Origin: a virus | Reading direction: 5' to 3' (one strand) | Length of the DNA stretch: 50,132 bases | Virus record (IMG/VR): IMGVR_UViG_3300036884_000045 | Location: 1 to 50,132 of that record | Program-made: the position numbers and the translations under genes | The notes under the pieces: model-generated | Databases searched by the model: none | Told to the model about the DNA's origin: nothing | The model's input: only the letters and a program-made list of their open reading frames with translations | Shown here: piece by piece, positions 2,694-50,132 of the stretch | Position numbering within the stretch: position 1 is the first letter of the stretch | Layout: every line of letters starts with the position of its first letter

Positions 2694-2706
2694 GAGATAA
2701 AATTTC

Positions 2707-3735: not shown

Positions 3736-3748
3736 TTCAAACATTTAT

Positions 3749-3768: not shown

Positions 3769-3795
3769 AAATTTAATATTAAAGGAAAAATAAAC

Positions 3796-4230: not shown

Positions 4231-4245
4231 TCCAAAGGATTATAA

Positions 4246-5396: not shown

Positions 5397-5400
5397 TAAT

Positions 5401-6537: not shown

Positions 6538-6538
6538 C

Positions 6539-7441
6539 ATGAAAACAATAATTTTATTTATAGCATTATTCTCAATATCTATTTATAGCCAATCAGGATA
6601 TGGTTATGATTATGGAAATAATTATGGCGGAATTTCTATTGCTTTTACTGGTTCTGGGATGATACAAATAGGACAAACTGGTGTTCATAGTTTTGGATTA
6701 TCTTTAGATAAAACAGGAATAAACAGAGTACGAAGCTTAATTACTTCTGTTGCTGCACCAATAGTAATAACTTCTGCTAAATCAGTTATTGATTTTGTTT
6801 CAGAAGGTGCAGGCGGAAATGTTACCTCTGATGGTGGTGGAACTATAACAGCAAGGGGACTTGTTTGGGATTATTCAACAAACCCTATGCCCTCTGTAAC
6901 TTCATTTAAGGGAAAGACCATAGAACCGGGTACTACAGGTAGTTTCACAAACACAATGATTGAATTAGATACTACTCACACTTTTCGTTATAGGGCTTAT
7001 GCAACTAATTCGGCAGGTACTTCTTATGGAAATGATTCTACTTTTGCTATTAGAACTAATATACTTATTTATGATGCTTATTTATCAGGAGATGGAACAT
7101 CCATCAATGAAGATAGTCAGTTGGCAAACACTTTGAATTATAGTGGTATGTGGTATTGCGGGGGTGGAGTAATAACAAGTGATGCTTTTTCAGATATGAA
7201 TAATGACAACTATACATTGCAGTCGAATGTTGATGGTGTTGATATAACATTCTCCCCCTCTACAGTTGACCAAGTGCATGGAGATATTGCTATTGTTAGG
7301 CAGTCTTTTACTATCGGCACTTTTTCATTAGCATCAGCTAATATTCCCACTTGTGGAATCTTTGATGCAGACCATGCCCCAGATGATGTTCAAATTGATC
7401 TTAGGGTAATAATCACAAAGAAAGTGCCATATAACCCATGA
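6539..7441 (+). CDS. Secreted Ig/FN3-like repeat protein
   Basis: A 300-residue protein with a signal peptide ending in Y-S before Gln, a Gly/Tyr-rich segment (residues 20-32) and one Bacteroidota-type Ig/FN3-like unit (about 95-175) with T-A-R-G-L-V-W and Y-R-A-Y-A-T-N-S-A-G-T-S-Y-G. These repeats are common in secreted adhesins of Bacteroidota. The same module occurs without a signal peptide at 15384-15788. The start at 6539 is 1 bp after the previous stop codon and is chosen because it opens the signal peptide. Confidence 0.65.
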   Translation: MKTIILFIALFSISIYSQSGYGYDYGNNYGGISIAFTGSGMIQIGQTGVHSFGLSLDKTGINRVRSLITSVAAPIVITSAKSVIDFVSEGAGGNVTSDGGGTITARGLVWDYSTNPMPSVTSFKGKTIEPGTTGSFTNTMIELDTTHTFRYRAYATNSAGTSYGNDSTFAIRTNILIYDAYLSGDGTSINEDSQLANTLNYSGMWYCGGGVITSDAFSDMNNDNYTLQSNVDGVDITFSPSTVDQVHGDIAIVRQSFTIGTFSLASANIPTCGIFDADHAPDDVQIDLRVIITKKVPYNP

Positions 7442-7463
7442 TAAATAAAGCAGGTAAAAGAAA

Positions 7464-8027
7464 TTGAACAAATACATTTGTACACAAGCGGAAGTAAAAG
7501 AACTACTGCAAATAACAGCAACGACATGGGACACCATGATAACGAATTTACTTCCTGTTATTGCAAAACAGATTACCGCTTATTGTAAAAATACATTTGT
7601 GTCTGATAAAGTTAAACTTACTTCATTAGATTTAGTATTTGCCGCAACAGCGAAAACAATTACGGGCGATACCAGCCTTGATAATTTTACAACAGGATAT
7701 TTTTACGCAGACGATGTGATTTTAATTGAAGGCAGTATAAGGAATGACGGGGTTTATGAATTACAAACTGTTTTGAATAATGTACTCACTCTTAAATCTA
7801 CCGATACGATTAAAGATGAGGCTGTAAGCGATTTCATAGTTTCAATCCAAAGAATAGATTACCCGGGCGATCTTAAATTAGCTTTTGCAGATATAGTAAA
7901 ATCATTCATTGATGTTAACAGGGGCGTTCAACATTTCTCTTTAGCAGATTATTCGGTTACTTATTTTAATAGTAATATCTCAGATTTCGCAAAAGGTATA
8001 TTAAATAATTATAGGAGGATATTTTAA
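7464..8027 (+). CDS. Head-tail connector (gp6-like adaptor)
   Basis: A 187-residue protein whose N-terminus (a V-K-E-L-L-Q-I-T stretch, W-D-T-M-I-T-N-L-L, then A-Y-C-K-N-T-F near residue 45) matches the gp6/HK97 gp6-like adaptor pattern, here with an extra beta insert (about 60-110). Adaptors form a ring under the portal. The start is TTG with AGGTAAAAG upstream. The C-terminus is helical (F-A-K-G-I-L-N-N-Y-R-R). Confidence 0.68.
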   Translation: MNKYICTQAEVKELLQITATTWDTMITNLLPVIAKQITAYCKNTFVSDKVKLTSLDLVFAATAKTITGDTSLDNFTTGYFYADDVILIEGSIRNDGVYELQTVLNNVLTLKSTDTIKDEAVSDFIVSIQRIDYPGDLKLAFADIVKSFIDVNRGVQHFSLADYSVTYFNSNISDFAKGILNNYRRIF

Positions 8028-8028
8028 C

Positions 8029-8154
8029 ATGGCAAAAAGAATCAAATCAGGCACTTTTAAGACTTCTTACAAGAACGGAAAGAAAGTAGTTACCGGAATC
8101 TCAAAGAAGACTGGCAAAAGAATAGTTCATCATATAGCCAAAAAAGGAAAATAA
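8029..8154 (+). CDS. Lys-rich 41-residue protein
   Basis: Unrecognised. The ATG at 8029 follows a strong AGGAGG site. Nearly two fifths of the residues are Lys, Arg or His, and there are no acidic residues, so DNA or RNA contact is plausible. It lies between the connector and head-closure genes, next to a second basic mini-protein with the same M-A-K beginning. Confidence 0.55.
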   Translation: MAKRIKSGTFKTSYKNGKKVVTGISKKTGKRIVHHIAKKGK

Positions 8155-8158
8155 TATC

Positions 8159-8287
8159 ATGGCAAAAACTAAAAGTTCAAGAAAAAAGAAAAGTAGTGGC
8201 GGTGGTAAGTCAAGATTTGCCGCAACGATAAGGAAAAACCCAAGTAAATTCCCCGCCAAGACAGTTGCATGGGCTAAGAAACATTGA
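8159..8287 (+). CDS. Lys/Ser-rich 42-residue protein
   Basis: Unrecognised. Begins M-A-K-T-K, has an R-K-K-K-S-S-G-G-G-K linker and a short helix (F-P-A-K-T-V-A-W-A-K-K-H). No acidic residues. The stop codon overlaps the TTG start of the head-closure gene. It may be packaged in the head or help neck assembly; there is no direct evidence for either. Confidence 0.5.
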   Translation: MAKTKSSRKKKSSGGGKSRFAATIRKNPSKFPAKTVAWAKKH

Positions 8288-8607
8288 AGATCCCCTATAA
8301 CATAACATTTGCTTTTCAATCCGTTACCTCCGTAAGTGATAACATGGGGGGAACTACAGACACGTGGGCGACTGTTTCAGGTTTAAGCGCCGTACAGGGT
8401 CATCACAGAGAATTAAATGCAAACGAAATCTTTGCAAATGAAAAGAAAGGATTTAAGGCATTTGATATGTTCTATTGTGATTATATTTCCTCAGTAACAG
8501 ACACTTATCAAATCCTGTTTAATGGCGGCGTTTATAAAATACAGAATGTAAATGATCCTCATGGGATGCATTTATTTTTACAAATAGATACTCTAAAAAA
8601 TAGTTGA
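8284..8607 (+). CDS. Head-tail joining (head-closure) protein
   Basis: A 107-residue beta-rich protein matching the phage head-tail joining family (SPP1 gp16 / HK97 gp7-like): D-N-M-G-G-T-T-D-T-W near residues 20-29, then R-E-L-N-A-N-E, and V-Y-K-I-Q-N-V-N-D near the end. It would seal the connector after packaging. The TTG start overlaps the preceding stop codon. Confidence 0.75.
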   Translation: MKIPYNITFAFQSVTSVSDNMGGTTDTWATVSGLSAVQGHHRELNANEIFANEKKGFKAFDMFYCDYISSVTDTYQILFNGGVYKIQNVNDPHGMHLFLQIDTLKNS

Positions 8608-8623
8608 TTAAGGATAATTGAAT

Positions 8624-8956
8624 ATGGCAGATAATATAGAAACACACGCAGAGCAAGAAGTTCATGCAAAAGAAAGTGGGTATAGAATATTACAATCTTG
8701 GCACATATATCTAATGATCGCAGTAATGCTTGTTGGCTTTGGTGTCACTTGGGGAACTACTACAAGCGCCATAACTACTTTAGAAAATAGAGTAACAAAA
8801 ACGGAAGTAAATATTAACGAGATGCAGAAGGAATTGCCCACACAAGCAGTTCTTGTTTCTAAAATAGAAACATTAACCAAACAAGTTGATGTTTTATCAG
8901 ACAAGTTAGATAGAATCTTAATGAATACTTACGGACAAAAAGGAGTAAGAAAATGA
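8624..8956 (+). CDS. Membrane/coiled-coil lysis accessory protein
   Basis: A 110-residue protein with one transmembrane helix (about 28-50) followed by a long coiled coil (55-100), the plan of XhlA-like accessory lysis proteins. I start at ATG 8624 after AAGGATAATTG; an upstream TTG adds two residues. It opens the lysis cassette, and its stop codon overlaps the next small membrane protein. Confidence 0.6.
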   Translation: MADNIETHAEQEVHAKESGYRILQSWHIYLMIAVMLVGFGVTWGTTTSAITTLENRVTKTEVNINEMQKELPTQAVLVSKIETLTKQVDVLSDKLDRILMNTYGQKGVRK

Positions 8957-9030
8957 GCATAACAACGGTTTATATATTCATAGGAATAATAATTTTAGTA
9001 ACACTGTATCAAATATTTAGAAAAAAATAA
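8953..9030 (+). CDS. 25-residue membrane peptide
   Basis: One hydrophobic helix ending in R-K-K. ATGA overlap with the upstream gene and AAGGAGTAAGAAA before the start support translation. Its place between the coiled-coil membrane protein and the putative holin suggests a lysis role, perhaps a small antiholin-like or accessory peptide. Confidence 0.45.
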   Translation: MSITTVYIFIGIIILVTLYQIFRKK

Positions 9031-9042
9031 AAGGAGTCCAAA

Positions 9043-9309
9043 ATGTCACTTTTCGGAAAGATAAATTGGTTGGATGTATTGAAGGGATTCATAGTAGGCG
9101 TAGGCACTGTAGTCTTAACAGGGGTTTATACAGCGTTACAATCCGGCACGCTTCCAACGTTAGCACAACTTGAAACTTTGGGATTGACTGGGCTCGGTGC
9201 GGGATTAGCTTATTTACTCAAAAATATATTTAGTAATAATGCCGGAGTTCCTTTAGCAAAAGACGTTCCCGCAAGTACAACGGTTGGCGAATTAACTAAT
9301 AAAGTTTAA
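9043..9309 (+). CDS. Putative holin
   Basis: An 88-residue protein with two hydrophobic segments (about 11-30 and 45-62) and polar ends, directly upstream of the lysozyme gene. Holins form membrane lesions that let the endolysin reach the cell wall and set lysis time. AAAGGAGTCC precedes the ATG. The family is not recognised; the call rests on topology and position. Between this gene and 9384 there is a weak hairpin (CCGGCT/AGCCGG). Confidence 0.6.
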   Translation: MSLFGKINWLDVLKGFIVGVGTVVLTGVYTALQSGTLPTLAQLETLGLTGLGAGLAYLLKNIFSNNAGVPLAKDVPASTTVGELTNKV

Positions 9310-28310: not shown

Positions 28311-29483
28311 TTGACCCATGCTTCTCTTTTTACGGGTTTTGGAATGTTTGACTATGCAGCAGAGAAAGCCGGTTACAAAAACATATTTCAGGTAGAGATA
28401 AATGAGTTTTGCCAAAAGTTATTAAATGTTCGCTATCCTGAAACAGACAAATATTTAGATATAAAGGAATTTGATGGAACAAAATACAGAGGACTTATTG
28501 ACGTTATTTCCGGTGGCTTCCCCTGTCAGCCCTTTAGCCAAGCAGGACAAAGAAAAGGGCGTGAAGATGAACGAGCCTTATTCCCGGAAGCACTTAGAGT
28601 TATTAGAGAAGTGTCACCCGAATGGCTACTTCTGGAAAATGTTTACGGACTCCTTAATATCCATGATGGAGACTACTTTCAAAACGAAATTGTTGCATCG
28701 TTGGAGAATGAAGGTTACTCGGTTCAACCGTATATTATTCCAGCTTCAGCCATCGGGGCGATCCACAGGAGGGATAGAATATGGATTATTGGGTACTCCA
28801 AGAGCGCAGGAAAGACCACGCAGCGAGAAGTTTTTGCAGAGAGAACAGGGGATAAAGAGGGTTCCAACTCCAAGCGAAGTAATAGATTTAATGAATCGGG
28901 GGCTTCTAAAAACTCCAAGCAGATTCGATGCAACGGTAGTGAGTGGAAAGAAAAATCCGACATCGGGAAATTCGGGAAGTTTAGCTCAGGAAATGAGTCA
29001 GGGGTTTCCGACAAGGTTATTGCCAACGATGAGAGCCGGATTAACGGGGGACATAACAGAGAATCGGAAAAACGACAAGAATCGGAATTTGGAAAAGGCT
29101 TTAGCGATGGAATTACTACCAACCCCGAAGAAACAAAATGCAAATTCGGAAGGATTGCACGGACAAGGGGGAATGGATTTACAAACACAAATTTCACTAC
29201 TACCCACACCGACATCACACGACAATCGGGACAGGGGGTCGATAGACGACCCGTGCATTCGGAGAAGAGTGGAATTAGGGAAGAATATAGATTTATCAAT
29301 GACAGTCAATTCCAAAGAGAATGGATTGAAGTTGCAAACCAAATTTGTGGAATGGATGCTGCACCTTCCACCGGATTACACAAATCCAGATATCGCAAAC
29401 AGCGACTTGAAGGTTTGGGAAACGGTATTCAATGGGAAATAGCCTGGACTTTCTTTGAATTGATTAAGGAGTTTTCAAATTGA
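28311..29483 (+). CDS. DNA (cytosine-5) methyltransferase
   Basis: A 390-residue enzyme. Motif I S-L-F-T-G-F-G-M-F-D near 5-14, motif IV G-G-F-P-C-Q-P-F-S near 67-75 with catalytic Cys, motif VI L-L-E-N-V near 107-111, motif VIII R-R-D-R-I-W-I near 152-158, motif X-like L-G-N-G-I-Q near 371-376. Residues about 163-325 are low-complexity and polar; this is the stretch that is open in a second frame (28474-29442). It likely protects phage DNA from host restriction. TTG start with AAGAAGGGGG upstream. Confidence 0.85.
   Translation: MTHASLFTGFGMFDYAAEKAGYKNIFQVEINEFCQKLLNVRYPETDKYLDIKEFDGTKYRGLIDVISGGFPCQPFSQAGQRKGREDERALFPEALRVIREVSPEWLLLENVYGLLNIHDGDYFQNEIVASLENEGYSVQPYIIPASAIGAIHRRDRIWIIGYSKSAGKTTQREVFAERTGDKEGSNSKRSNRFNESGASKNSKQIRCNGSEWKEKSDIGKFGKFSSGNESGVSDKVIANDESRINGGHNRESEKRQESEFGKGFSDGITTNPEETKCKFGRIARTRGNGFTNTNFTTTHTDITRQSGQGVDRRPVHSEKSGIREEYRFINDSQFQREWIEVANQICGMDAAPSTGLHKSRYRKQRLEGLGNGIQWEIAWTFFELIKEFSN
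28474..29442 (+). CDS. Overprinted protein inside the methyltransferase gene (LPTP-type)
   Basis: A 322-residue frame, offset from the methyltransferase frame, with its own AAAGGA before the ATG. It looks like a known phage protein type marked by repeated L-L-P-T-P (and G-T-P, K-T-P) motifs, an N-terminal S-P-V-S-P, S-R-K-H-L-E-L-L-E and a C-terminal F-V-E-W-M-L-H-L-P-P-D-Y-T. I recognise the family pattern from phage genomes, where it is often annotated as methyltransferase-related, but know no proven function. Both frames are intact over 969 bp. Confidence 0.55.
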   Translation: MEQNTEDLLTLFPVASPVSPLAKQDKEKGVKMNEPYSRKHLELLEKCHPNGYFWKMFTDSLISMMETTFKTKLLHRWRMKVTRFNRILFQLQPSGRSTGGIEYGLLGTPRAQERPRSEKFLQREQGIKRVPTPSEVIDLMNRGLLKTPSRFDATVVSGKKNPTSGNSGSLAQEMSQGFPTRLLPTMRAGLTGDITENRKNDKNRNLEKALAMELLPTPKKQNANSEGLHGQGGMDLQTQISLLPTPTSHDNRDRGSIDDPCIRRRVELGKNIDLSMTVNSKENGLKLQTKFVEWMLHLPPDYTNPDIANSDLKVWETVFNGK

Positions 29484-29890
29484 AGGATTTACTCCTCTCC
29501 ATATTGTTAACAAGATCCAGCATAGACAAGCCCATGCTTTCGGTTGACCTATTCAGATTAGTTAATCCTAACCTCTCCCTGCGCTCTTTTCAAAGGTCAA
29601 TTTCAGACATAATTAATGAGTATAACCAGAAAACCTATGAGAAGGTCATTAGGGGTCAAATAAGCAAGGATTCGGCTGTGTTGATACTAAGTGATAAGAG
29701 CAGGGGCTATTTCGCAGCAGGAACCAAGGAGGCAAGGAAGGAGGGCGTCCTAGAATATTTCTCAACTGTAAAAACAGAACTTGCTAAGGCTCGTTTCTTA
29801 AACAAATTTGTAAATGAGGTGGATAATTTGAGGCTACAACAGGACTTTGAATTTTTAAGAGAAGAAAATAATGGAGAGTTATTCGGATGA
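29480..29890 (+). CDS. Hypothetical 136-residue protein
   Basis: Unrecognised. Helical, with an R-S-F-Q-R-S-I-S-D-I-I-N-E segment (about 35-47) that may be a winged-helix part, a middle with S-K-D-S-A-V-L-I-L-S, and an acidic C-terminal helix. TTG start overlaps the methyltransferase stop codon; ATGA overlap with the next gene. The tight coupling suggests a shared task with its neighbours. Confidence 0.5.
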   Translation: MKDLLLSILLTRSSIDKPMLSVDLFRLVNPNLSLRSFQRSISDIINEYNQKTYEKVIRGQISKDSAVLILSDKSRGYFAAGTKEARKEGVLEYFSTVKTELAKARFLNKFVNEVDNLRLQQDFEFLREENNGELFG

Positions 29891-30705
29891 AAAGAATAAT
29901 CAGCTTTAGCGGTGGCAAAGATTCAACGGCTTTAATCCTATGGGCTAAAGAAAACTTGGATGAATTTGACACCATATTTTGTGACACTGGTTGGGAGTCG
30001 GACGAAACCTATGAATATATCCAGTATATAAACTTAATGTTGCTTAATGGAAAACTGATAGTATTGCATTCAAAAGATTATTCGAGTTTTGAAGATTTAT
30101 CAATTAAAAAACAAAGAATCCCTAGTAGTCAGGCTCGTTATTGTACTGAAGAATTAAAACTTATCCCTACTAAAAATTATATATCTCAATATCTCCCTGT
30201 TTTATGTTCTGAATTTGAACCCCCGGAAGTCGAAATATATGTTGGAATCCGGGCTGATGAAAGCGAAGCAAGAAAAGATTTACCGGAAAGAACGTGGTCA
30301 GACTTTTATAATTGTTTCCTTAATAGACCCTTGATATATCAAAATGTCGAATATGTTTTTGATCTGCATAAGAAATATGGGGTAAAACCCAACCCGCTAT
30401 ACAGCAAGGGATTTAGTAGAGTTGGTTGCTATCCATGTATCAATATTCGATTGCCTGAGTTAAGGCAATTATTCATTAGAGACCCGCAACGAATTGATAA
30501 AATTAGAGAACTTGAAAGAAATGTCGGGAGAAGTTTTTTCTCTCCCAAAAGAATACCTAAAAGATTTCATACTGGTTTTGATTTTAAAAGCGGTAAATCC
30601 TTCCCCTGGATTGATGATGTTATCAAATATATATCTTCCGGTAAGTATGAGATTCAAGACGAAGAAGGGGAATCATGTATGAGTTATTATTCAATATGCG
30701 AATAA
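29887..30705 (+). CDS. PAPS-reductase-like (PP-loop) protein
   Basis: A 272-residue protein with the PP-loop motif S-F-S-G-G-K-D-S-T near residues 6-14 and F-C-D-T-G-W-E near 34-40, C-T-E-E-L-K near 86-91, and C-Y-P-C near 186-189. The family activates substrates with ATP; in phages it may serve sulfur or nucleotide modification. A role in DNA modification beside the C5 methyltransferase is a guess. Confidence 0.75.
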   Translation: MKRIISFSGGKDSTALILWAKENLDEFDTIFCDTGWESDETYEYIQYINLMLLNGKLIVLHSKDYSSFEDLSIKKQRIPSSQARYCTEELKLIPTKNYISQYLPVLCSEFEPPEVEIYVGIRADESEARKDLPERTWSDFYNCFLNRPLIYQNVEYVFDLHKKYGVKPNPLYSKGFSRVGCYPCINIRLPELRQLFIRDPQRIDKIRELERNVGRSFFSPKRIPKRFHTGFDFKSGKSFPWIDDVIKYISSGKYEIQDEEGESCMSYYSICE

Positions 30706-40164: not shown

Positions 40165-42177
40165 TTGCCCTCCCAAGAATCCATAGCGTTATCGAAACTT
40201 ACAACTGATAAAATCAATTCCCTGTTATTATTAAGGGACGAAACAGCAGATAAGCAATACCTTGCATGGGAGAATGAACTACTTAATACCTACAAGCGTT
40301 CTTTACTTGCAATCAAAGATCAAATCCGTGCCATGTATGAAAAGTATGGGGAATCGGTTACTTTATCAGAAATGCAGTCCTTCAATCGGTTAAAGAATCT
40401 TGAATTACAGATTACTAAAGAGATCAACACGTTAAATACTAATATCACTATCAGAACCAGAAAACAGTTAGGCAATTTCTTTGAATCTAATTATTATCAA
40501 ACGGGCTTTGCTATTGAATCAGGCTTGGGGATGGATTTAAGTTTTGGTTTGTTGAATCCTTCGGTTATCCAGGCGGCAGTTGTTAATCCTTACGATTGGG
40601 AAGGGAGATTGAAGCTATGGAATAATAAATTACTGTTGGATATTAAGCAGAACGTAACTGATGGATTAACACAAGGGAATGGATTAGTAAAGACTACTAA
40701 AAATATTCAAACCTCTTTTGAAACTAATCTGGGCAAAAGAGCAGCAGATAAAATAACACGCTCAAATATTTTAAGAGTAGTAAGAACCGAATCCACAAGG
40801 GCACAGGAAATAGGAAATGTCTCTGGATTTTCACAAGCTCAACAGGATGCAAGCGATTTAGGTTTTGAAACATTAAAAATATGGGATGCTACACTTGATA
40901 GTAGAACACGCCCGAATCATGGGGCTATGGATGGCAAGGCAGCCGATAGTGAAGGGATGTTTCACTTTACAACTATGGATGGGAATAAGATTCTTGTTGA
41001 GGCTCCGCATTTAACAAATACAACGGACGATATAAACTGTTTCCCTGAATATGTTAATGCCTTTTCAATCACCCCTATCAAAAAGGCATATAAACGATTC
41101 TATGAGGGTGAATTAGTTGAGATCACTACTCGAAGTGGAATAAAGCTCACCGGTTCCCCTAAACACCCAATACTTACCCCTGAAGGATGGATCGGCATAG
41201 GTTCTTTGAATAATGGGGATAATGTTTTGAAGTGTACTCTCAACAAGAATGTCGTTTCTTGCAACCCAAATATAAATAATATTCCATCCCGAATTAGTAA
41301 AGTTTTTGATCTTTCTTCTATCTTTTTCCCTTGTCAGCGGACAGGCGGGGTCTCTCAACAATTCCATGGCGACGGAACCGATGGCGATGTCGATATTGTA
41401 TTGGTTAAAGGCCTTTTGAGGGATCGCATTAAATCCTTTTTGAGCAAACCAGTCAAGAATATATTTCTCACCCTCGCCGACCTTGGAAAGGGTCTTTTGT
41501 TTTGTATGAGCCGAAAGACTCATTTCCTCAATAGTCCTAACCCTACCAGTACAAGCTTTATGAGCAGCCTCGACTTGGTGAAGCCTTTTCTTTTTAGACA
41601 TATTTTTCCATTTAAGAGATTCGCTCTCGGATTGAGTTCTGCGGGTAATGCCGTTTTTAGTGAGGATTCTTCTTATAACGGCACGGCTAATATTAAAAGT
41701 TTTAGCGATTTGATTTTCGGAAACACCAGAGATATAGTCTTTGATAATTTTAGACGAATTAAAGATTTCAAATTTACTCATATTATTTCTAAGAGTAAGT
41801 TGAGTACATTCTTTCGGGGTTCTCTTTTCAATACTATAGTCTCTCATAATTCTATCGACACACCCAGTGCTGATATTGAAAATTTTTGCAAGGTCTTTCC
41901 GGTAAGTGCCGGAATTGTAAAGACTGATAAAGTGGTTAATATTAGAAAGTTTTATTTTAGCGGGCATTTGTATAACCTTGAAACTGTTAATAATTATTAT
42001 CTTGCTGCTAATATACAAAAAGACAACGACAATATCAATTTCTTAATAGCGCATAATTGCCGCTGCAATTCAAGAGTTGAAATCAAAGGCTTAGAGCCTT
42101 CTGTACGCAGGGATAATGAAAATAAAACAGTCATCAAATATCAGACTTACGATAAATGGAAGGAAACATTAAAATGA
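40165..42177 (+). CDS. MuF-like minor head protein precursor with intein
   Basis: A 670-residue precursor. Extein residues 1-291 and 632-670 equal the 330-residue MuF protein at 112-1104 (about 88% identity). Residues 292-631 are an intein at the conserved N-C-R-C motif. Splicing would restore D-D-I-N-C-R-C, as in the empty allele D-R-I-N-C-R-C. This allele has family-typical residues R-T-E-S-T-R-A and D-S-R-T-R-P-N-H-G. TTG start as in the other copy. If splicing fails the head protein would be non-functional. Confidence 0.88.
   Translation: MPSQESIALSKLTTDKINSLLLLRDETADKQYLAWENELLNTYKRSLLAIKDQIRAMYEKYGESVTLSEMQSFNRLKNLELQITKEINTLNTNITIRTRKQLGNFFESNYYQTGFAIESGLGMDLSFGLLNPSVIQAAVVNPYDWEGRLKLWNNKLLLDIKQNVTDGLTQGNGLVKTTKNIQTSFETNLGKRAADKITRSNILRVVRTESTRAQEIGNVSGFSQAQQDASDLGFETLKIWDATLDSRTRPNHGAMDGKAADSEGMFHFTTMDGNKILVEAPHLTNTTDDINCFPEYVNAFSITPIKKAYKRFYEGELVEITTRSGIKLTGSPKHPILTPEGWIGIGSLNNGDNVLKCTLNKNVVSCNPNINNIPSRISKVFDLSSIFFPCQRTGGVSQQFHGDGTDGDVDIVLVKGLLRDRIKSFLSKPVKNIFLTLADLGKGLLFCMSRKTHFLNSPNPTSTSFMSSLDLVKPFLFRHIFPFKRFALGLSSAGNAVFSEDSSYNGTANIKSFSDLIFGNTRDIVFDNFRRIKDFKFTHIISKSKLSTFFRGSLFNTIVSHNSIDTPSADIENFCKVFPVSAGIVKTDKVVNIRKFYFSGHLYNLETVNNYYLAANIQKDNDNINFLIAHNCRCNSRVEIKGLEPSVRRDNENKTVIKYQTYDKWKETLK
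41113..41967 (-). CDS. Antisense homing-endonuclease-like gene inside the intein
   Basis: A 284-residue protein on the minus strand. Two helix-turn-helix units: Y-R-K-D-L-A-K-I-F-N-I-S near 22-33 and E-N-Q-I-A-K-T-F-N-I-S near 84-94, each followed by a T-x-R/K-T-x-x-E element. A Vsr/PD-(D/E)XK-like nuclease region follows: G-E-G-E-K-Y-I-L near 164-171, Y-N-I-D-I-A-I near 191-197, V-A-M-E-L near 200-204, G-W-N-I-I-Y-I-W near 228-235. ATG 41967 is the complement of intein His-310 and has AAGG 8 nt upstream; a longer start at 42018 lies close to the promoter. Codons are in exact register with the sense codons, so TTA, CTA and TCA never occur among about 18 Leu and 26 Ser. The usual His after the core is not obvious, so catalysis is unproven. 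Confidence 0.75.
   Translation of the reverse strand: MPAKIKLSNINHFISLYNSGTYRKDLAKIFNISTGCVDRIMRDYSIEKRTPKECTQLTLRNNMSKFEIFNSSKIIKDYISGVSENQIAKTFNISRAVIRRILTKNGITRRTQSESESLKWKNMSKKKRLHQVEAAHKACTGRVRTIEEMSLSAHTKQKTLSKVGEGEKYILDWFAQKGFNAIPQKAFNQYNIDIAIGSVAMELLRDPACPLTREKDRRKIKNFTNSGWNIIYIWVARNDILVESTLQNIIPIIQRTYADPSFRGKYWVFRGTGELYSTSSSDLN
42010..42038 (-). promoter_or_regulatory. Minus-strand promoter inside the intein
   Basis: On the minus strand TTGATA (42038-42033) and TATATT (42015-42010) are 17 bp apart, ending 42 bp before the antisense ATG at 41967. The boxes lie in the codons for A-N-I-Q-K-D-N-D-N-I-N, between splicing blocks F and G. Matches 5 of 6 at each box, the same layout as the promoter at 1871-1899. 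Confidence 0.6.
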
Positions 42178-42404
42178 TAGATCGTAAAATTGAATCCTTA
42201 ACATTCCCCGTATTAAGACAAATGAATCTCATAAACGAGAAGGAGTTGAGGGATTTGTTTATCGTTAATGATTTCAAGGAGATGAGAGCAGAAGGGTTAA
42301 CCGTTGAGGCGATAATTGAGATATGTTCACAAAAGAAATATAATAACCAGTATCTATCAAAATATATGATTAGGTATATTATTTATAAAAAGGGGTTATC
42401 GTGA
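42174..42404 (+). CDS. Hypothetical 76-residue protein (right copy)
   Basis: Same as 1101-1331. In this copy the alternative earlier start at 42156 is ATG rather than TTG, because the last divergent base lies there. Confidence 0.6.
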   Translation: MIDRKIESLTFPVLRQMNLINEKELRDLFIVNDFKEMRAEGLTVEAIIEICSQKKYNNQYLSKYMIRYIIYKKGLS

Positions 42405-42541
42405 CAAATTCTTTGTTGATAATCTCTCATATAATCTAACAGGCTACAGCTCCAAAGCCATTTAGACATTTGATAAGAGATTGCTTTTGCCCTCCTTATA
42501 TTTTTGCCATTAAACTTCCTCTTCTTTATCCTAGCCTTCAT
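42383..42541 (-). CDS. Basic 52-residue protein of reverse cassette (right copy)
   Basis: Same as 1310-1468, with the AAGGAGAAG ribosome site and the ATGA overlap with the upstream reverse gene. Confidence 0.5.
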   Translation of the reverse strand: MKARIKKRKFNGKNIRRAKAISYQMSKWLWSCSLLDYMRDYQQRICHDNPFL

Positions 42542-42696
42542 TTCTTCTCCTTAATCAGTTTCATTACAAAATCAGCAAGTCCCATAGCTCCCCTGGATAA
42601 GTTTATCAGATCAAACTCTTTAGAAGTTACCCGGAATTGTATTTGACAATCACGTCCGCCCTTGTGAGGGGTGATTATGCGTTTAATCTTTTCCAT
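42538..42696 (-). CDS. Ribbon-helix-helix-like regulator (right copy)
   Basis: Same as 1465-1623; middle gene of the reverse cassette. Confidence 0.45.
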   Translation of the reverse strand: MEKIKRIITPHKGGRDCQIQFRVTSKEFDLINLSRGAMGLADFVMKLIKEKK

Positions 42697-42907
42697 ATTC
42701 TTTTGTATAAAACTTAAATTCAAGTATAATCGTTTCAAATTCATCCGGTTTTCTTGGATTAAAAATCGGATATAAATCAAAATAAAAGAATTTCGTTAAA
42801 ATAAAACGCACTAACTTAAACAACAGTCCCTTACATAATACTTGCGCCTTGTTATATTTATAATCGCCACTAAAATATGTGTGGGAACCCAAAATTTGTC
42901 CTTCCAT
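42683..42907 (-). CDS. Hypothetical 74-residue protein of reverse cassette (right copy)
   Basis: Same as 1610-1834; first gene of the reverse cassette. Confidence 0.45.
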   Translation of the reverse strand: MEGQILGSHTYFSGDYKYNKAQVLCKGLLFKLVRFILTKFFYFDLYPIFNPRKPDEFETIILEFKFYTKEYGKD

Positions 42908-42943
42908 CGTCCTTCCTCTATAATTGTTTTTAATCCTACTTTT

Positions 42944-42995
42944 AATATACGAGAATGTATATCTAAAATCAATAGACTTTCTAAAATTATTAGAA
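42944..42995 (-). promoter_or_regulatory. Reverse cassette promoter and palindromes (right copy)
   Basis: Same as 1871-1922: TTGATT-17-TATATT on the minus strand with ATATAC/GTATAT and TTCTAA/TTAGAA palindromes. Confidence 0.55.
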
Positions 42996-43121
42996 TGATT
43001 TTATATAACCAAACACTTATTCTTTCGGTGTCGATATTTAGTATTTCCACGACAACAAAGGAAAGAGATTACGAAGAGAGAACTTCAACAAACACAGTCA
43101 AATCTAAACCATAAGGAATAT

Positions 43122-43766
43122 ATGGAAAAATTAACAAGTTTACCTACACCTGAATTATTTGCTTCAACTTACAAAGATCAAATCTTATATGTTGCTAAAG
43201 CAGATGAAAATGTCATTGTTGATAATAATGGCAAGTATATGCCAGTCGATAAGCATAACGCTGAAATGACAGCAAAGAAACTTGAAATAGAAAACCTCAA
43301 ATCTCAAAAAGACTCTACAGATGCTGAATTAACGAAGCTGAAAAAAGAGTTTAAGGATGTTGAGGGGTTTTCAGATGCCATTAAAAAACTACAGACAGAG
43401 AATGCCGAAAAAGATAAAGTTCTCGAATCAACTAAGAAATCTTATACCATCAAAGAAGCGGTAAAAGATGCTTATAGAGATTTAGGCGTTAATGCAGAAT
43501 ACTTGGATTATGTAATAGGTAAGGAAAACCCCGAACTCGAAAAGGTGGAACTGAAAGAAGGTAAATTTGTGATCGACACCGAAAAAGTTAAAACATTAAA
43601 AGAAAAATATAAAGCAGTAATCGGTATTACTACTGTTAAGGGCTTTACGCCTGATAATGGCAATATCGATACTTCCGGTGATGCTGAATTTAAGAAATAC
43701 AACGTCACTCAACAAATTGAATTAAAGAAAAAAGACCCGGAAACATATAAACGAGTTTTCGGATAG
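43122..43766 (+). CDS. Capsid scaffold protein (right copy)
   Basis: Identical translation to 2049-2693. Confidence 0.75.
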   Translation: MEKLTSLPTPELFASTYKDQILYVAKADENVIVDNNGKYMPVDKHNAEMTAKKLEIENLKSQKDSTDAELTKLKKEFKDVEGFSDAIKKLQTENAEKDKVLESTKKSYTIKEAVKDAYRDLGVNAEYLDYVIGKENPELEKVELKEGKFVIDTEKVKTLKEKYKAVIGITTVKGFTPDNGNIDTSGDAEFKKYNVTQQIELKKKDPETYKRVFG

Positions 43767-43779
43767 GAGATAAAATTTC

Positions 43780-44808
43780 ATGGCACTTCAAGCAACGGCA
43801 ATTACCAATATTTATGAACCAACAATATGGTCTAAATATTTCATAGAACTTACTACTCAAAAATCATTACTTATTCAATCAGGTATAGCGGGCACAGACC
43901 TGGAACTAACAGCGGCAGCCAACGAGGGCGGACGTGTTGTTAATATGCCTTTCTGGGATGATCTTCCACATGATACAGGTTCAACAACCAGATCAAAGGT
44001 CGCAACCGATACAGATGATGAAATCACACCGGCCGGAATTACATCCAATGAAGATATAGCAGTTAAAGAATTTAGAACACAGGATTTCCAGGTTGCCCCG
44101 ATAGTCAAATATGTGGCTGGTGACGATCCTGCAAATGTAATAGTTCAAAGATATGCAACATGGTGGAATAAAGAAGAGCAAAGACTTCTTCTACTTAAAT
44201 TAACAGGTGCTTTCCTTAATTCAACCATTTACGGAAACTTACAGAATGATATTTCCACAGGTGCACCTACAACTAATGCAGCTAATCTAATTTCAACAGA
44301 TGCAATTCTTGATACCCAGTTTCTTTTAGGCGATGCTTATGAGAAATTGACCGGTATTATAATGCACTCAGTAGTTTTCAAAAGATTAGCTAAACTTGAT
44401 TTGATTGATAACTTACCTGAGTCACAGCAAAGTCCATTGATTATGCCAACCTATCAGGGGAAGAAAATCCTTGTTGATGACGGTATGACTGTATATGATG
44501 GTACTACTTACAAAAAGTATTATACTTATTTATTCGGACAGGGAGCAATCGGAAGGGTAGATATACCTCTTCAATCCGGCGATCCCGAACTTGAATTATT
44601 CAGAAATCCTAAAGCTGGCGTTGGTGCTGGTATGTTGGATATAATTTCAAGACGTTATTTCATTTTACACCTTAGAGGAATCAAGTATTATGATTCTAAT
44701 ATGGCTGGTGTTTCTCCCTCAGATGCTGAGTTAGTTGATCCTACAAATTATACTCAGGTTTATTTAACCAAGAATATAAGAATCGCACGTTTGGTCACAA
44801 ACGGGTAA
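43780..44808 (+). CDS. Major capsid protein (right copy)
   Basis: Identical translation to 2707-3735; the hairpin after it recurs at 44822-44841. Confidence 0.88.
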   Translation: MALQATAITNIYEPTIWSKYFIELTTQKSLLIQSGIAGTDLELTAAANEGGRVVNMPFWDDLPHDTGSTTRSKVATDTDDEITPAGITSNEDIAVKEFRTQDFQVAPIVKYVAGDDPANVIVQRYATWWNKEEQRLLLLKLTGAFLNSTIYGNLQNDISTGAPTTNAANLISTDAILDTQFLLGDAYEKLTGIIMHSVVFKRLAKLDLIDNLPESQQSPLIMPTYQGKKILVDDGMTVYDGTTYKKYYTYLFGQGAIGRVDIPLQSGDPELELFRNPKAGVGAGMLDIISRRYFILHLRGIKYYDSNMAGVSPSDAELVDPTNYTQVYLTKNIRIARLVTNG

Positions 44809-44868
44809 TTCAAACATTTATGGGGTTGCATAAGCGACCCCAAATTTAATATTAAAGGAAAAATAAAC

Positions 44869-45303
44869 ATGGAAAAATCATTTAGTAGTATTGTAAATAA
44901 AGAAAAGCATGGATTAGGCGGAGTTGTTAAAACTCTCGCTTCTGCTTTTTCTGGCGATCTTGTTTTCGTAGTTAGTCCCGCAACCGTTACACCCGCCCCG
45001 AGGTCAACAGCATGGACAAGAACCGTAAAGGTTTATCTTAAAAATGCAGCTGGCGATATTCATACTTGGTTTAGCAAGGCCATTGCTACGGGTGTTTCTA
45101 TTGCAGATACCTCAACGGCCGGAGCCGCTACTATTCCGAGTACAACCCTTACCTTTATCGAGGGCGTGGCCACCGTGGTGGTTAGCGGAGACGCACAGGC
45201 ATGGCTTAATACAGAGACTGATACTTTGACGGTTCCACAAGCGACCATCTTGGGTTATACGGTGGCAGCGAAAACAAGTGTAGAAACCTTTACAACTCCT
45301 TAA
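44869..45303 (+). CDS. Probable decoration protein (right copy)
   Basis: Identical translation to 3796-4230, including the GC-richer codon use. Confidence 0.5.
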   Translation: MEKSFSSIVNKEKHGLGGVVKTLASAFSGDLVFVVSPATVTPAPRSTAWTRTVKVYLKNAAGDIHTWFSKAIATGVSIADTSTAGAATIPSTTLTFIEGVATVVVSGDAQAWLNTETDTLTVPQATILGYTVAAKTSVETFTTP

Positions 45304-45318
45304 TCCAAAGGATTATAA

Positions 45319-45606
45319 ATGATAACCTTTGAATTATTCGGGATTGTAAAATCTAAAGGTAAAACTATAGCCGTTGGTGACAGCGGCTTATTTTCTACCG
45401 ATAATAATAAAGTCATATCTAAATTAGATCAACTCGGATTCAAAAGAATCGAATCAATCACTCTTGAAACAAGCGAAAAAAAAGAGTCCGAGTTGGTCCT
45501 TAAATCAGAACTTGAAGTGCCAAAAGGTGTAACGTTTCCTATAGAAATGAAAATACCCGATGCACATAATAAACCCATTAAAAAACCGAAAGGTAAGAAG
45601 AAATGA
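45319..45606 (+). CDS. Hypothetical 95-residue protein (right copy)
   Basis: Identical translation to 4246-4533. Confidence 0.55.
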   Translation: MITFELFGIVKSKGKTIAVGDSGLFSTDNNKVISKLDQLGFKRIESITLETSEKKESELVLKSELEVPKGVTFPIEMKIPDAHNKPIKKPKGKKK

Positions 45607-46469
45607 AAAAGATAATATTTGCAATTTTAGTTTTAATTGGCTCGGTTATTGTAATGGGACAGGACAGGACAGTATTACCGAACACTCCTTTTTATAAAGA
45701 TACCCTATCGGCAAGCAGAGATACAATAGATGTTCTATTCTCTGATTATGGAGATAAAGAAACATTTACCTTTACAGCCTACACCACTACAGGAACGGAC
45801 ACAGTTTTAATTTATACCAAGTCCTTAGATGGTACTATCTGGGTAAGTAAGGCTTCTTTTGCAATTACCACTACTCCGGTTGAATATGGGATAGATGATC
45901 CGGAACCTACTGCAATAAGAGTTATAAGCACAAGTAACGATGCCTCGACTACCGTATTTGTATTGGCAGGTAAGAAAGGTTTAATAAATGATTATGGAGA
46001 AACTTCAACCACTACAGTAACGATAGATCCCCCAACAGGTGGATTTGCTACAAATAATAAACTTGATTCTGCTGTAACCATATTAAAGGCACCCCTTGAC
46101 ACAACCGGCAATTATGCAAGGAGTATAATCAAGGCTGATTTGGATAGTCTTAACGTTGTGAATATTTGTTTAGTAGATTCTGCTAAAGGCGACACCCTTA
46201 CAACTGCAGGACTTATACATCAGATAAATATTGCATCATTAGGAATATTGCATTGGTACATATACACCCTCTACTCTGATAGTGGGTATTATCATAAGGC
46301 TACTAAATGGGGTGGAAATGTTTTTGCAAGTTTACCCCCTGTGATGCCAGCATTGGGTAGCTTTACATCTGAAAAATTAGATCCTGCACAATTCATTTAT
46401 GTTGATTATTTGAAAAGCGGAATTCATAATGGCAGCCAAATAATATATGTACAAATACAAGGAAGATAG
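45603..46469 (+). CDS. Signal-peptide protein (right copy)
   Basis: Identical translation to 4530-5396. Confidence 0.65.
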   Translation: MKKIIFAILVLIGSVIVMGQDRTVLPNTPFYKDTLSASRDTIDVLFSDYGDKETFTFTAYTTTGTDTVLIYTKSLDGTIWVSKASFAITTTPVEYGIDDPEPTAIRVISTSNDASTTVFVLAGKKGLINDYGETSTTTVTIDPPTGGFATNNKLDSAVTILKAPLDTTGNYARSIIKADLDSLNVVNICLVDSAKGDTLTTAGLIHQINIASLGILHWYIYTLYSDSGYYHKATKWGGNVFASLPPVMPALGSFTSEKLDPAQFIYVDYLKSGIHNGSQIIYVQIQGR

Positions 46470-46473
46470 TAAT

Positions 46474-47610
46474 ATGAAAAATATAATTTTATTTGTAATG
46501 TTATTGAGTGGTCTTTTATTTGCACAAACAACACCAAGTGGATATACTGCCAATATCCATTTAAGAAAATGGGCTGATGGTGCGATACACCCATCGGGCG
46601 ATAGTCTCAATGCTAATTTAGATGGTATCGATACTCTTTTAGGAAAGCATAGTAATGCTGTTTTAATTAAATCAGATAGAACAATTCATAGATATTCTAC
46701 ACTAAAATTAGCTGTTGCTGATGCTGATTCAGGAAGTGTTATTACATTATATCAGGGAGTTTACTCTGATTCCGTAACTGTTACAACACAAGGAATAACC
46801 ATTAAGGGCATTTCAAAGGAATCTGTTTTAATTACGGGAGCACTATATATAACTGCTTCTTTTGGAGAATTATCAAATGTTAAAATATCTGGAAACTTAA
46901 CTTTTATAGGACAAATTTCTACTGCTTGTTATGTAGTTAATGATTGTAGACTTGAAAATAATGTAAATGTAGGATTAGCAGGGATAGCAATAGCGAGCGA
47001 TGTTGAGTTTAATAATTGTTATTTAGGTTCTGATGCTTCAACTTGGGCTGGAAGTTCAAAAACTTTTTATTTTAATACATCTATACAAAGAGCAATTTAC
47101 TTTCACTGCTGTTACAGTTTCGCATGGCATGATAGTCAAGCATTTATTCTTAATGCATACTCACGAGTTGATTTACAAACATGTGATCTTGCTCTCTATG
47201 GTGTATATTTTACCGGAGGTACCGGCTATACTGTTCCAATACCAGAATTGGATGCGAATGGTGGGAGATTTCAGACTACTACTGGTGGGTATTCTAATAG
47301 TGGTTATTGTGTGATGGTTGCCAGAAATTGTGCATTTGGGTTTTCAAGCACAATTACTTTGAGCAATCATTTTCAAATTCAGTTAATGCAGTGTACTATA
47401 GCGGCTGGAGCACCCAACTCCACAATAATATGTAATTCTGCTTCTAACAATTTGCAGATAATAATGTGTTATGGGGTTATAAATTTTAGTAATATAACAG
47501 GAAGCGGTTTAGCTAATCTACACATACAAGACTGTATTTTTGGTTTTGCCAAACCGACTGGAATAGCAAATGATGATAATAATGTGTGGAACTCTTACGT
47601 GGATTATTAA
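46474..47610 (+). CDS. Secreted beta-helix protein (right copy)
   Basis: Identical translation to 5401-6537. Confidence 0.65.
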   Translation: MKNIILFVMLLSGLLFAQTTPSGYTANIHLRKWADGAIHPSGDSLNANLDGIDTLLGKHSNAVLIKSDRTIHRYSTLKLAVADADSGSVITLYQGVYSDSVTVTTQGITIKGISKESVLITGALYITASFGELSNVKISGNLTFIGQISTACYVVNDCRLENNVNVGLAGIAIASDVEFNNCYLGSDASTWAGSSKTFYFNTSIQRAIYFHCCYSFAWHDSQAFILNAYSRVDLQTCDLALYGVYFTGGTGYTVPIPELDANGGRFQTTTGGYSNSGYCVMVARNCAFGFSSTITLSNHFQIQLMQCTIAAGAPNSTIICNSASNNLQIIMCYGVINFSNITGSGLANLHIQDCIFGFAKPTGIANDDNNVWNSYVDY

Positions 47611-47611
47611 C

Positions 47612-48514
47612 ATGAAAACAATAATTTTATTTATAGCATTATTCTCAATATCTATTTATAGCCAATCAGGATATGGTTATGATTATGGAAATAATTATGG
47701 CGGAATTTCTATTGCTTTTACTGGTTCTGGGATGATACAAATAGGACAAACTGGTGTTCATAGTTTTGGATTATCTTTAGATAAAACAGGAATAAACAGA
47801 GTACGAAGCTTAATTACTTCTGTTGCTGCACCAATAGTAATAACTTCTGCTAAATCAGTTATTGATTTTGTTTCAGAAGGTGCAGGCGGAAATGTTACCT
47901 CTGATGGTGGTGGAACTATAACAGCAAGGGGACTTGTTTGGGATTATTCAACAAACCCTATGCCCTCTGTAACTTCATTTAAGGGAAAGACCATAGAACC
48001 GGGTACTACAGGTAGTTTCACAAACACAATGATTGAATTAGATACTACTCACACTTTTCGTTATAGGGCTTATGCAACTAATTCGGCAGGTACTTCTTAT
48101 GGAAATGATTCTACTTTTGCTATTAGAACTAATATACTTATTTATGATGCTTATTTATCAGGAGATGGAACATCCATCAATGAAGATAGTCAGTTGGCAA
48201 ACACTTTGAATTATAGTGGTATGTGGTATTGCGGGGGTGGAGTAATAACAAGTGATGCTTTTTCAGATATGAATAATGACAACTATACATTGCAGTCGAA
48301 TGTTGATGGTGTTGATATAACATTCTCCCCCTCTACAGTTGACCAAGTGCATGGAGATATTGCTATTGTTAGGCAGTCTTTTACTATCGGCACTTTTTCA
48401 TTAGCATCAGCTAATATTCCCACTTGTGGAATCTTTGATGCAGACCATGCCCCAGATGATGTTCAAATTGATCTTAGGGTAATAATCACAAAGAAAGTGC
48501 CATATAACCCATGA
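47612..48514 (+). CDS. Secreted Ig/FN3-like protein (right copy)
   Basis: Identical translation to 6539-7441. Confidence 0.65.
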   Translation: MKTIILFIALFSISIYSQSGYGYDYGNNYGGISIAFTGSGMIQIGQTGVHSFGLSLDKTGINRVRSLITSVAAPIVITSAKSVIDFVSEGAGGNVTSDGGGTITARGLVWDYSTNPMPSVTSFKGKTIEPGTTGSFTNTMIELDTTHTFRYRAYATNSAGTSYGNDSTFAIRTNILIYDAYLSGDGTSINEDSQLANTLNYSGMWYCGGGVITSDAFSDMNNDNYTLQSNVDGVDITFSPSTVDQVHGDIAIVRQSFTIGTFSLASANIPTCGIFDADHAPDDVQIDLRVIITKKVPYNP

Positions 48515-48536
48515 TAAATAAAGCAGGTAAAAGAAA

Positions 48537-49100
48537 TTGAACAAATACATTTGTACACAAGCGGAAGTAAAAGAACTACTGCAAATAACAGCAACGACAT
48601 GGGACACCATGATAACGAATTTACTTCCTGTTATTGCAAAACAGATTACCGCTTATTGTAAAAATACATTTGTGTCTGATAAAGTTAAACTTACTTCATT
48701 AGATTTAGTATTTGCCGCAACAGCGAAAACAATTACGGGCGATACCAGCCTTGATAATTTTACAACAGGATATTTTTACGCAGACGATGTGATTTTAATT
48801 GAAGGCAGTATAAGGAATGACGGGGTTTATGAATTACAAACTGTTTTGAATAATGTACTCACTCTTAAATCTACCGATACGATTAAAGATGAGGCTGTAA
48901 GCGATTTCATAGTTTCAATCCAAAGAATAGATTACCCGGGCGATCTTAAATTAGCTTTTGCAGATATAGTAAAATCATTCATTGATGTTAACAGGGGCGT
49001 TCAACATTTCTCTTTAGCAGATTATTCGGTTACTTATTTTAATAGTAATATCTCAGATTTCGCAAAAGGTATATTAAATAATTATAGGAGGATATTTTAA
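48537..49100 (+). CDS. Head-tail connector (right copy)
   Basis: Identical translation to 7464-8027, TTG start. Confidence 0.68.
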   Translation: MNKYICTQAEVKELLQITATTWDTMITNLLPVIAKQITAYCKNTFVSDKVKLTSLDLVFAATAKTITGDTSLDNFTTGYFYADDVILIEGSIRNDGVYELQTVLNNVLTLKSTDTIKDEAVSDFIVSIQRIDYPGDLKLAFADIVKSFIDVNRGVQHFSLADYSVTYFNSNISDFAKGILNNYRRIF

Positions 49101-49101
49101 C

Positions 49102-49227
49102 ATGGCAAAAAGAATCAAATCAGGCACTTTTAAGACTTCTTACAAGAACGGAAAGAAAGTAGTTACCGGAATCTCAAAGAAGACTGGCAAAAGAATAGTT
49201 CATCATATAGCCAAAAAAGGAAAATAA
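49102..49227 (+). CDS. Lys-rich 41-residue protein (right copy)
   Basis: Same as 8029-8154. Confidence 0.55.
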   Translation: MAKRIKSGTFKTSYKNGKKVVTGISKKTGKRIVHHIAKKGK

Positions 49228-49231
49228 TATC

Positions 49232-49360
49232 ATGGCAAAAACTAAAAGTTCAAGAAAAAAGAAAAGTAGTGGCGGTGGTAAGTCAAGATTTGCCGCAACG
49301 ATAAGGAAAAACCCAAGTAAATTCCCCGCCAAGACAGTTGCATGGGCTAAGAAACATTGA
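49232..49360 (+). CDS. Lys/Ser-rich 42-residue protein (right copy)
   Basis: Same as 8159-8287. Confidence 0.5.
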   Translation: MAKTKSSRKKKSSGGGKSRFAATIRKNPSKFPAKTVAWAKKH

Positions 49361-49680
49361 AGATCCCCTATAACATAACATTTGCTTTTCAATCCGTTAC
49401 CTCCGTAAGTGATAACATGGGGGGAACTACAGACACGTGGGCGACTGTTTCAGGTTTAAGCGCCGTACAGGGTCATCACAGAGAATTAAATGCAAACGAA
49501 ATCTTTGCAAATGAAAAGAAAGGATTTAAGGCATTTGATATGTTCTATTGTGATTATATTTCCTCAGTAACAGACACTTATCAAATCCTGTTTAATGGCG
49601 GCGTTTATAAAATACAGAATGTAAATGATCCTCATGGGATGCATTTATTTTTACAAATAGATACTCTAAAAAATAGTTGA
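49357..49680 (+). CDS. Head-tail joining protein (right copy)
   Basis: Identical translation to 8284-8607. Confidence 0.75.
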   Translation: MKIPYNITFAFQSVTSVSDNMGGTTDTWATVSGLSAVQGHHRELNANEIFANEKKGFKAFDMFYCDYISSVTDTYQILFNGGVYKIQNVNDPHGMHLFLQIDTLKNS

Positions 49681-49696
49681 TTAAGGATAATTGAAT

Positions 49697-50029
49697 ATGG
49701 CAGATAATATAGAAACACACGCAGAGCAAGAAGTTCATGCAAAAGAAAGTGGGTATAGAATATTACAATCTTGGCACATATATCTAATGATCGCAGTAAT
49801 GCTTGTTGGCTTTGGTGTCACTTGGGGAACTACTACAAGCGCCATAACTACTTTAGAAAATAGAGTAACAAAAACGGAAGTAAATATTAACGAGATGCAG
49901 AAGGAATTGCCCACACAAGCAGTTCTTGTTTCTAAAATAGAAACATTAACCAAACAAGTTGATGTTTTATCAGACAAGTTAGATAGAATCTTAATGAATA
50001 CTTACGGACAAAAAGGAGTAAGAAAATGA
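49697..50029 (+). CDS. Lysis accessory membrane protein (right copy)
   Basis: Identical translation to 8624-8956. Confidence 0.6.
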   Translation: MADNIETHAEQEVHAKESGYRILQSWHIYLMIAVMLVGFGVTWGTTTSAITTLENRVTKTEVNINEMQKELPTQAVLVSKIETLTKQVDVLSDKLDRILMNTYGQKGVRK

Positions 50030-50103
50030 GCATAACAACGGTTTATATATTCATAGGAATAATAATTTTAGTAACACTGTATCAAATATTTAGAAAAAAA
50101 TAA
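50026..50103 (+). CDS. 25-residue membrane peptide (right copy)
   Basis: Same as 8953-9030. Confidence 0.45.
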   Translation: MSITTVYIFIGIIILVTLYQIFRKK

Positions 50104-50115
50104 AAGGAGTCCAAA

Positions 50116-50132
50116 ATGTCACTTTTCGGAAA
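50116..50132 (+). CDS. Putative holin, 5' fragment cut by the window edge
   Basis: First 17 bases of the gene seen complete at 9043-9309; the start codon and AAAGGAGTCC site are present. Confidence 0.6.

Follow-up and report, generated by a model that had tools for sequence, protein, structure and literature searches.

It has been reported that M.EcoHK31I, a two-polypeptide C5-cytosine methyltransferase, carries motifs I–VIII and X on its larger chain and motif IX on its smaller one (PMC3404938). The gene of the small chain lies inside that of the large chain, in another frame, and M.EaeI is another two-polypeptide C5 methyltransferase. M.AquI is split after motif VIII, with part of the recognition region, motif IX and also motif X on the second chain. 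In Bacillus phages, tandem recognition domains are known that lie between motifs VIII and IX, are exchangeable and belong to the catalytic frame. M.BatI from a Bacillus anthracis prophage has an unusually short recognition domain, and its toxicity in E. coli is independent of methylation (PMC8936443). Long same-strand overlaps in which both frames are under selection have rarely been established in prokaryotes and their viruses.

The window, i.e., the whole stretch of viral DNA analysed here (50,132 nucleotides; IMG/VR record IMGVR_UViG_3300036884_000045), contains a methyltransferase gene, termed alpha, and within it a long open +1 frame, termed beta (Table 1). Alpha matches PF00145 (E 6.2e-46, profile search) and phrog_363, and the presence of the PF00145 catalytic motifs I–VIII, including the PCQ loop, meets the criterion for a C5-cytosine methyltransferase; the criterion for a canonical single-chain enzyme, motif IX in the same chain, is not met, and the match covers only profile positions 1–234 of 324. 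From the substitution pattern in relatives, the alpha variable region is inferred to be a weakly constrained linker. The +1 frame is open for 325 codons (28465–29439), a length reached by 0 of 5000 shuffles that keep the methyltransferase protein and its codon usage (mean 136, maximum 318), and it holds five LLPTP-like motifs against a shuffle mean of 0.06 and a maximum of 2. An in-frame TTG at 28471 lies one codon before the beta ATG. The window beta matches phrog_1008 (E 5.6e-20); searches of Pfam and NCBIfam with it gave no match. Its AF2 model is poor as a whole (pLDDT 62, pTM 0.29), with pLDDT of about 68–90 over residues 41–90 of the N-terminal domain; the best structure match for beta in the PDB, GnsA with Z 3.5, was treated as no match.

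Table 1. Position of the two overlapping frames and their parts in the window.
Feature	Position	Strand	Description
Alpha, C5-cytosine methyltransferase	28311–29483	+	390 aa, TTG start; motifs I–VIII and X; motif IX absent from alpha frame
Alpha catalytic part	28326–28796	+	motif I 28326–28343; PCQ motif IV 28512–28538; motif VIII 28749–28796
Alpha variable region	28797–29402	+	202 aa, 74% S/N/G/R/K/E/T/D/Q; basis: composition, and substitution pattern in relatives
Alpha motif X (RLEGLGNGIQWEIAWTFFEL)	29403–29462	+	end of overlap
Beta Shine–Dalgarno-like AAAGGA	28463–28468	+	5 bases 5' of ATG 28474
Beta, +1-frame gene	28474–29442	+	322 aa, ATG start; stop 29440–29442
Beta N-terminal domain	28474–28785	+	overlaps alpha motifs IV–VIII; helix-helix-strand-strand predicted, residues 36–94
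Beta cassette 1 (LLGTP...)	28786–28902	+	
Beta cassette 2 (LLKTP...)	28903–29016	+	
Beta cassette 3 (LLPTM...)	29017–29112	+	weak likeness to cassettes of L031, L091, L042 (score 40–44)
Beta cassette 4 (LLPTPKKQNANSEGLHGQGGMDLQTQIS)	29113–29196	+	twins in actinophages: beta of L309 (score 70), alpha of L296 (score 60)
Beta cassette 5 (LLPTPTSHDNRDRG..IRRR..LGK.IDLSM)	29197–29322	+	twins in L039, L032, L180 (scores 89–91)
Beta motif-IX-like element (GLKLQTKFVEWMLHLPPDYT)	29323–29382	+	

Two further observations concern the surroundings of the locus. Positions 29480–30705, downstream of the methyltransferase, hold a small hypothetical gene followed by a PAPS reductase-like gene (recognized by eye), and the order is the same in Bacteroides phage BS-TP4. 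The first 9 kb of the window (1–9059) are repeated at 41074–50132, i.e., at an offset of 41073, from about base 1084, with 736 mismatches, all of them within bases 1–1083; this may point to a redundant or circular genome of ~41 kb, one end of which was replaced or misassembled.

The overlap is common in a subfamily of phage methyltransferases and occurs across phages of several bacterial groups. A sample of 160 viral methyltransferase loci was chosen by catalytic-frame motifs only, and 143 were usable for the +1-frame counts, since 17 had no methyltransferase ORF by regular expression or contained N. At 120 of these 143 loci, at least 99% of the synonymous shuffles gave a shorter +1 frame, whereas the +2 frame stayed at chance level (p of 0.05 or less at 8/143); an LLPTP-like motif was found in the +1 frame at 126/143 loci (about 6 motif occurrences expected) and an MGFPxGW motif at 118/143 (about 1 expected). 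Because the scans started from seeds that already had a beta frame and retained no more than the 80 best matches each, the share of overlaps is valid for this subfamily and not for all C5 enzymes. phrog_1008 was matched by the window beta and by all 117 aligned beta members, only one of which matched Pfam (SHOCT domain). Among bacterial genomes, phrog_1008 was found in 4/348 from the phylum of a Scopulibacillus isolate and 21/349 from that of a Paraburkholderia isolate, both samples including the centre genome, itself with a match. The 38 distinct beta-family ORFs from bacterial-genome and pattern-found loci all lie in the +1 frame of a methyltransferase; no stand-alone beta gene occurs among these ORFs, which passed the beta profile and came from 13 exact DNA-pattern loci and phrog_1008 searches of 9, 348 and 349 genomes. 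One pattern locus, L183, had no beta ORF of more than 60 aa at the match and failed the beta profile. A plasmid search with one beta gave three records, and in some records both ORFs are already annotated, e.g., LEYRA_61 and LEYRA_62 of Paenibacillus phage Leyra.

The initial annotation, made from sequence alone, had claimed that the methyltransferase variable region is also open in a second frame at 28474–29442 with its own AAAGGA site, and that this frame shows an L-L-P-T-P-type pattern known from a recurring phage protein. Both claims held, the coordinates included. Its mechanical link, namely that CTN CCN ACN CCN read one base off produces the strings common in phage methyltransferase inserts, is supported, and the A-D-S and N-S-like strings of the alpha insert are a by-product of LLPTPxASD. 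Its suggestion of a general overprinting held as well, and its question of whether homologs of the two frames always overlap was answered by 38 beta-family ORFs out of 38.

Selection was assessed by counting differences between close pairs at alpha codon positions 1, 2 and 3, where alpha position 1 corresponds to beta position 3; the main set comprised 48 independent pairs with 2227 variable-region codons, and stretches below 65% local identity were excluded. The single-coding parts gave 0.130/0.076/0.456 upstream and 0.074/0.062/0.437 downstream, the overlap with the catalytic part gave 0.138/0.072/0.242, and the overlap with the variable region gave 0.239/0.095/0.102, with alpha position 1 the fastest. 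Similarly, 14 Bacillus-type pairs gave 0.175/0.060/0.040 in the variable overlap against 0.079/0.054/0.333 upstream. Twelve actinophage pairs that have the cassettes in alpha served as a mirror control and showed the ordinary, i.e., reversed pattern (0.033/0.036/0.163). Slow third and fast first alpha positions in the variable region mean that beta is the constrained frame there; beta is thus protein-coding and under purifying selection, and its conservation, as the substitution positions, the cross-frame cassettes and the mirrored control show, is not forced by the first frame; measuring selection in each frame was the second check proposed by the initial annotation. A rough inference without a fitted model, taking single-coding position 3 as neutral, puts the relative rate of changes that alter beta and are mostly silent in alpha at ~0.2, and that of changes that alter alpha and are mostly silent in beta at ~0.5. 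The alpha reading frame is also kept open: among 36 loci identified by way of beta, 35 have no interruption of it in the variable region, where 4.2 are expected from beta-synonymous shuffles (1 of 37 rows was left out, and L184, one of the 38 beta ORFs, with a shortened alpha, was not entered). The closest relatives of the window are near-identical contigs, so selection was measured in relatives and not in the window lineage. In the Bacillus-type loci L331, L323 and L332, beta ends early or lacks the full motif-IX pattern, which possibly reflects recent frame losses.

The beta array consists of recurring cassette types of about 35 residues each. In actinophages, motif VIII is followed in the alpha frame by one to five cassettes and then by motifs IX and X, and a given cassette type can be found in alpha of one phage and in beta of another, where the best scores were 109, 107, 104 and 99 and shuffled tails did not exceed 45; an example of such cross-frame twins is GGHLTRSGDRSHELLLPGVA in Estave1 alpha and GGHLNRSGSRKHELLLPGVA in CheeseTouch beta. 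For 178 of 407 cassettes, a twin was found in a methyltransferase with less than 50% identity in its catalytic segment, and none of 100 shuffled tails reached the twin score against any cassette. Modules of the beta array and those placed between motifs VIII and IX of the methyltransferase frame in other phages are one and the same. In the window, two of the five cassettes (4 and 5) have clear twins and three do not. The cassettes are read as target-recognition modules because they are mobile and placed between motifs VIII and IX, DNA reading itself being inferred. Intermediates also exist: L171, L174, L003 and L008 have cassettes in beta and motif IX in alpha, and in L242 the array starts in beta and goes on in alpha. 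The AF2 model of an in-frame actinophage enzyme matched M.HhaI with Z 22.7 and rmsd 3.3 for 233 residues, over residues 1–366; the EWMMGWP helix and motif X were placed confidently, while the cassettes were not confidently folded (residues 162–277 below 50). Aligning a mixture of alpha and beta fragments with a single fused enzyme gave a faulty alignment, which was discarded.

Actinophages with a complete alpha still have a beta with the N-terminal domain and 0–2 cassettes, and this persistence suggests that beta may have a role beyond supplying a recognition domain. In L239–L241, the beta N-terminal domain is open in the +1 frame at 1847–2119 though the cassettes and motif IX sit in alpha. 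In L193, beta (6832–7596, reverse strand of the locus) has an additional LLPTPTASD cassette upstream of the PCQ motif, before alpha motif IV. In three actinophage copies (L312, L313 and L315), indels end alpha near motif VIII and place the cassettes and motifs IX and X in one frame with beta; the resulting split resembles that of M.AquI, though assembly error is not excluded.

The C-terminus of beta, LNPxWVEWLMGFPxGWTD, is shaped like motif IX, which reads RRLTPRECARLMGFPDTF in canonical enzymes; that of the window beta (EWMLHLPPDY) is divergent from the consensus. Across 236 methyltransferase ORFs (47 of 283 were dropped as duplicates or incomplete), the motif-IX pattern was present in the +1 frame only in 184, in alpha only in 28, in both in 2 and in neither in 22; it is thus absent from alpha in 206, 11 of them canonical genome enzymes missed by the regular expression. 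Motif IX is in frame in each of the 28 canonical genome enzymes, as the regular expression showed for 17 and reading by eye for the other 11; an open +1 frame is absent from all of them. In the in-frame actinophage homologues, motif IX immediately precedes motif X. Profile comparisons gave weaker support: hhalign of beta against canonical enzymes aligned only the motif-IX stretch, in the right register but weakly (probability 2.4%, E 0.019, 19 columns), and a PDB sequence profile search with beta returned nothing but the methyltransferases 4onq (E 0.65) and 4onj (E 0.66), both plant DRM enzymes, over the same stretch. The swap of motif IX between frames is, in our judgement, stronger evidence for the identity of beta than these alignments. 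With motif IX on the small chain and missing from the large one, the M.EcoHK31I-type arrangement is met, the element being divergent in the window itself.

Initiation signals are in line with a separate beta start. A beta ATG near the PCQ motif exists at 127 of 154 loci; a Shine–Dalgarno match of at least 5 bases precedes the first such ATG at 51/127, compared with 6.5% among 2044 ATGs taken from these genes as controls, and Lys-Glu pairs are written AAGGAG in 21/35 cases at the beta start site versus 20/123 elsewhere. The signal is not universal: a Shine–Dalgarno match with any start codon occurs at that place in 70/154 loci, versus 21–40 of 113–153 at displaced places. In one of the locus comparisons, 30 of the 154 rows were dropped before counting. 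This enrichment favours separate initiation of beta over frameshifting, translation from this start being inferred.

These data most probably describe a C5 methyltransferase split over two overlapping frames. In the proposed mechanism, the alpha frame would give the catalytic chain with motifs I–VIII, the variable linker and motif X, and beta would be translated from the same message from its own Shine–Dalgarno sequence and ATG inside alpha, giving a chain in which the array of LLPTP cassettes stands between a small N-terminal domain and motif IX. Together, the alpha and beta chains would form one C5-cytosine methyltransferase, as reported for M.EcoHK31I; the beta cassettes would supply target recognition, and their exchange and reordering by the phage may allow different sites to be protected. 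Translation of beta, assembly, the need for both chains, DNA reading and the specificity of each cassette are inferred, without translation, binding or methylation data. The initial annotation had not recognised that the second protein is related to the enzyme, carrying its motif IX and very likely also the region for target recognition, nor had it named the M.EcoHK31I precedent.

It could be argued that beta is a real but separate protein, e.g., an anti-restriction factor, regulator or toxin, which merely shares DNA with the methyltransferase. The retention of its own N-terminal domain and start even where the actinophage alpha is complete, and the lack of a Pfam family beyond the single SHOCT match, would fit this reading. 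However, in actinophages it is the methyltransferase frame that holds, between motifs VIII and X, both the cassettes and the motif-IX element, motif IX is absent from alpha exactly where beta has it, and no beta-family ORF in the bacterial-genome loci (0/38) lies outside a methyltransferase; a separate protein is thus unlikely. Even less support is found for programmed frameshifting, in which a ribosomal shift from alpha to beta in the vicinity of motif VIII would yield a single fusion with motif IX at its end. Natural fused forms are known, by indel in L312, L313 and L315 and as the in-frame actinophage enzymes, but frameshifting would need neither a beta that is open and constrained before motif VIII (position 3 of the catalytic overlap 0.242 versus 0.456), nor an enriched beta Shine–Dalgarno sequence and ATG, nor an alpha maintained open as far as motif X; it is considered very unlikely, although no search for slippery sites was made.

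The remaining alternative, a shadow ORF whose +1 frame is conserved merely through the methyltransferase frame, finds some support in the beta N-terminus, which is partly forced by the codons of motifs IV and VIII. Against it, substitutions in the variable region are slow at alpha third positions, and cassettes that are nearly identical turn up elsewhere in the other frame; on these grounds the shadow ORF was rejected for the cassette and motif-IX region and is all but excluded.

The split two-chain enzyme, the reading preferred here, would account for the low complexity of the alpha variable region in these phage methyltransferases and its many A-D/N-S strings, for the apparent shortness or absence of a recognition domain in them, and for the lack of catalytic motifs in a methyltransferase-labelled PHROG family. 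A bolder reading is that, for a large share of phage C5 methyltransferases, two chains are obligatory and the recognition part is kept in an overlapping frame as a mobile cassette library, from a pool common to phages of unrelated hosts, each cassette working from either frame; the balance of evidence tips only slightly in its favour. If it is true, overprinting would be a general way to keep specificity exchangeable while binding it physically and inseparably to the catalytic gene. Should the cassettes prove to be recognition modules, they would offer a large natural set for decoding C5-methyltransferase specificity.

In the literature searched (judged by title and abstract opening), no paper was found to describe overlapping-frame recognition subunits as a general feature of phage C5 methyltransferases, nor was such a description found in the relevant passages of PMC3711429, PMC5009743, PMC12707154, PMC4081073, PMC3439449 and PMC6456624. 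M.BatI may possibly be an alpha chain with an unnoticed beta; this is only a lead, as no M.BatI sequence was compared, and no candidate with the M.BatI residue numbers was found among the Bacillus-type relatives. ShiLan-type hidden HNH endonucleases (PMC11855218) are similar in that a protein is coded in another frame within a phage (mycobacteriophage) methylase gene; they differ in being homing insertions of sporadic distribution and not a domain of the enzyme itself. phrog_1008 is named DNA methyltransferase by PHROGs, yet it is the overlapping-frame chain and not the catalytic one. Multispecific Bacillus phage C5 methyltransferases also combine tandem recognition domains in one phage enzyme (PMC8936443), whereas in most members of the present class the modules lie in the overlapping frame. 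As in M.AquI, the enzyme of the present class would consist of two chains, the second with motif IX and recognition sequence; motif X is on the second chain in M.AquI and on alpha here. The closest likeness, judged by motif layout alone, is to M.EcoHK31I: the window alpha has motifs I–VIII and X but not IX, and the beta gene lies inside alpha in another frame, as does the small-chain gene of M.EcoHK31I. The present class differs in being widespread in phages, in its often longer beta with up to several exchangeable cassettes and in the assignment of recognition to beta. Against this assignment, the predicted TRD of M.EcoHK31I has been placed in the larger chain (PMC3404938); the selection data presented here argue otherwise for this class. 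The two-polypeptide plan is known from M.EcoHK31I; its inferred spread in phages and the recognition-like cassettes, of inferred role, which recur between divergent enzymes in an overprinted frame, are what the present loci add.
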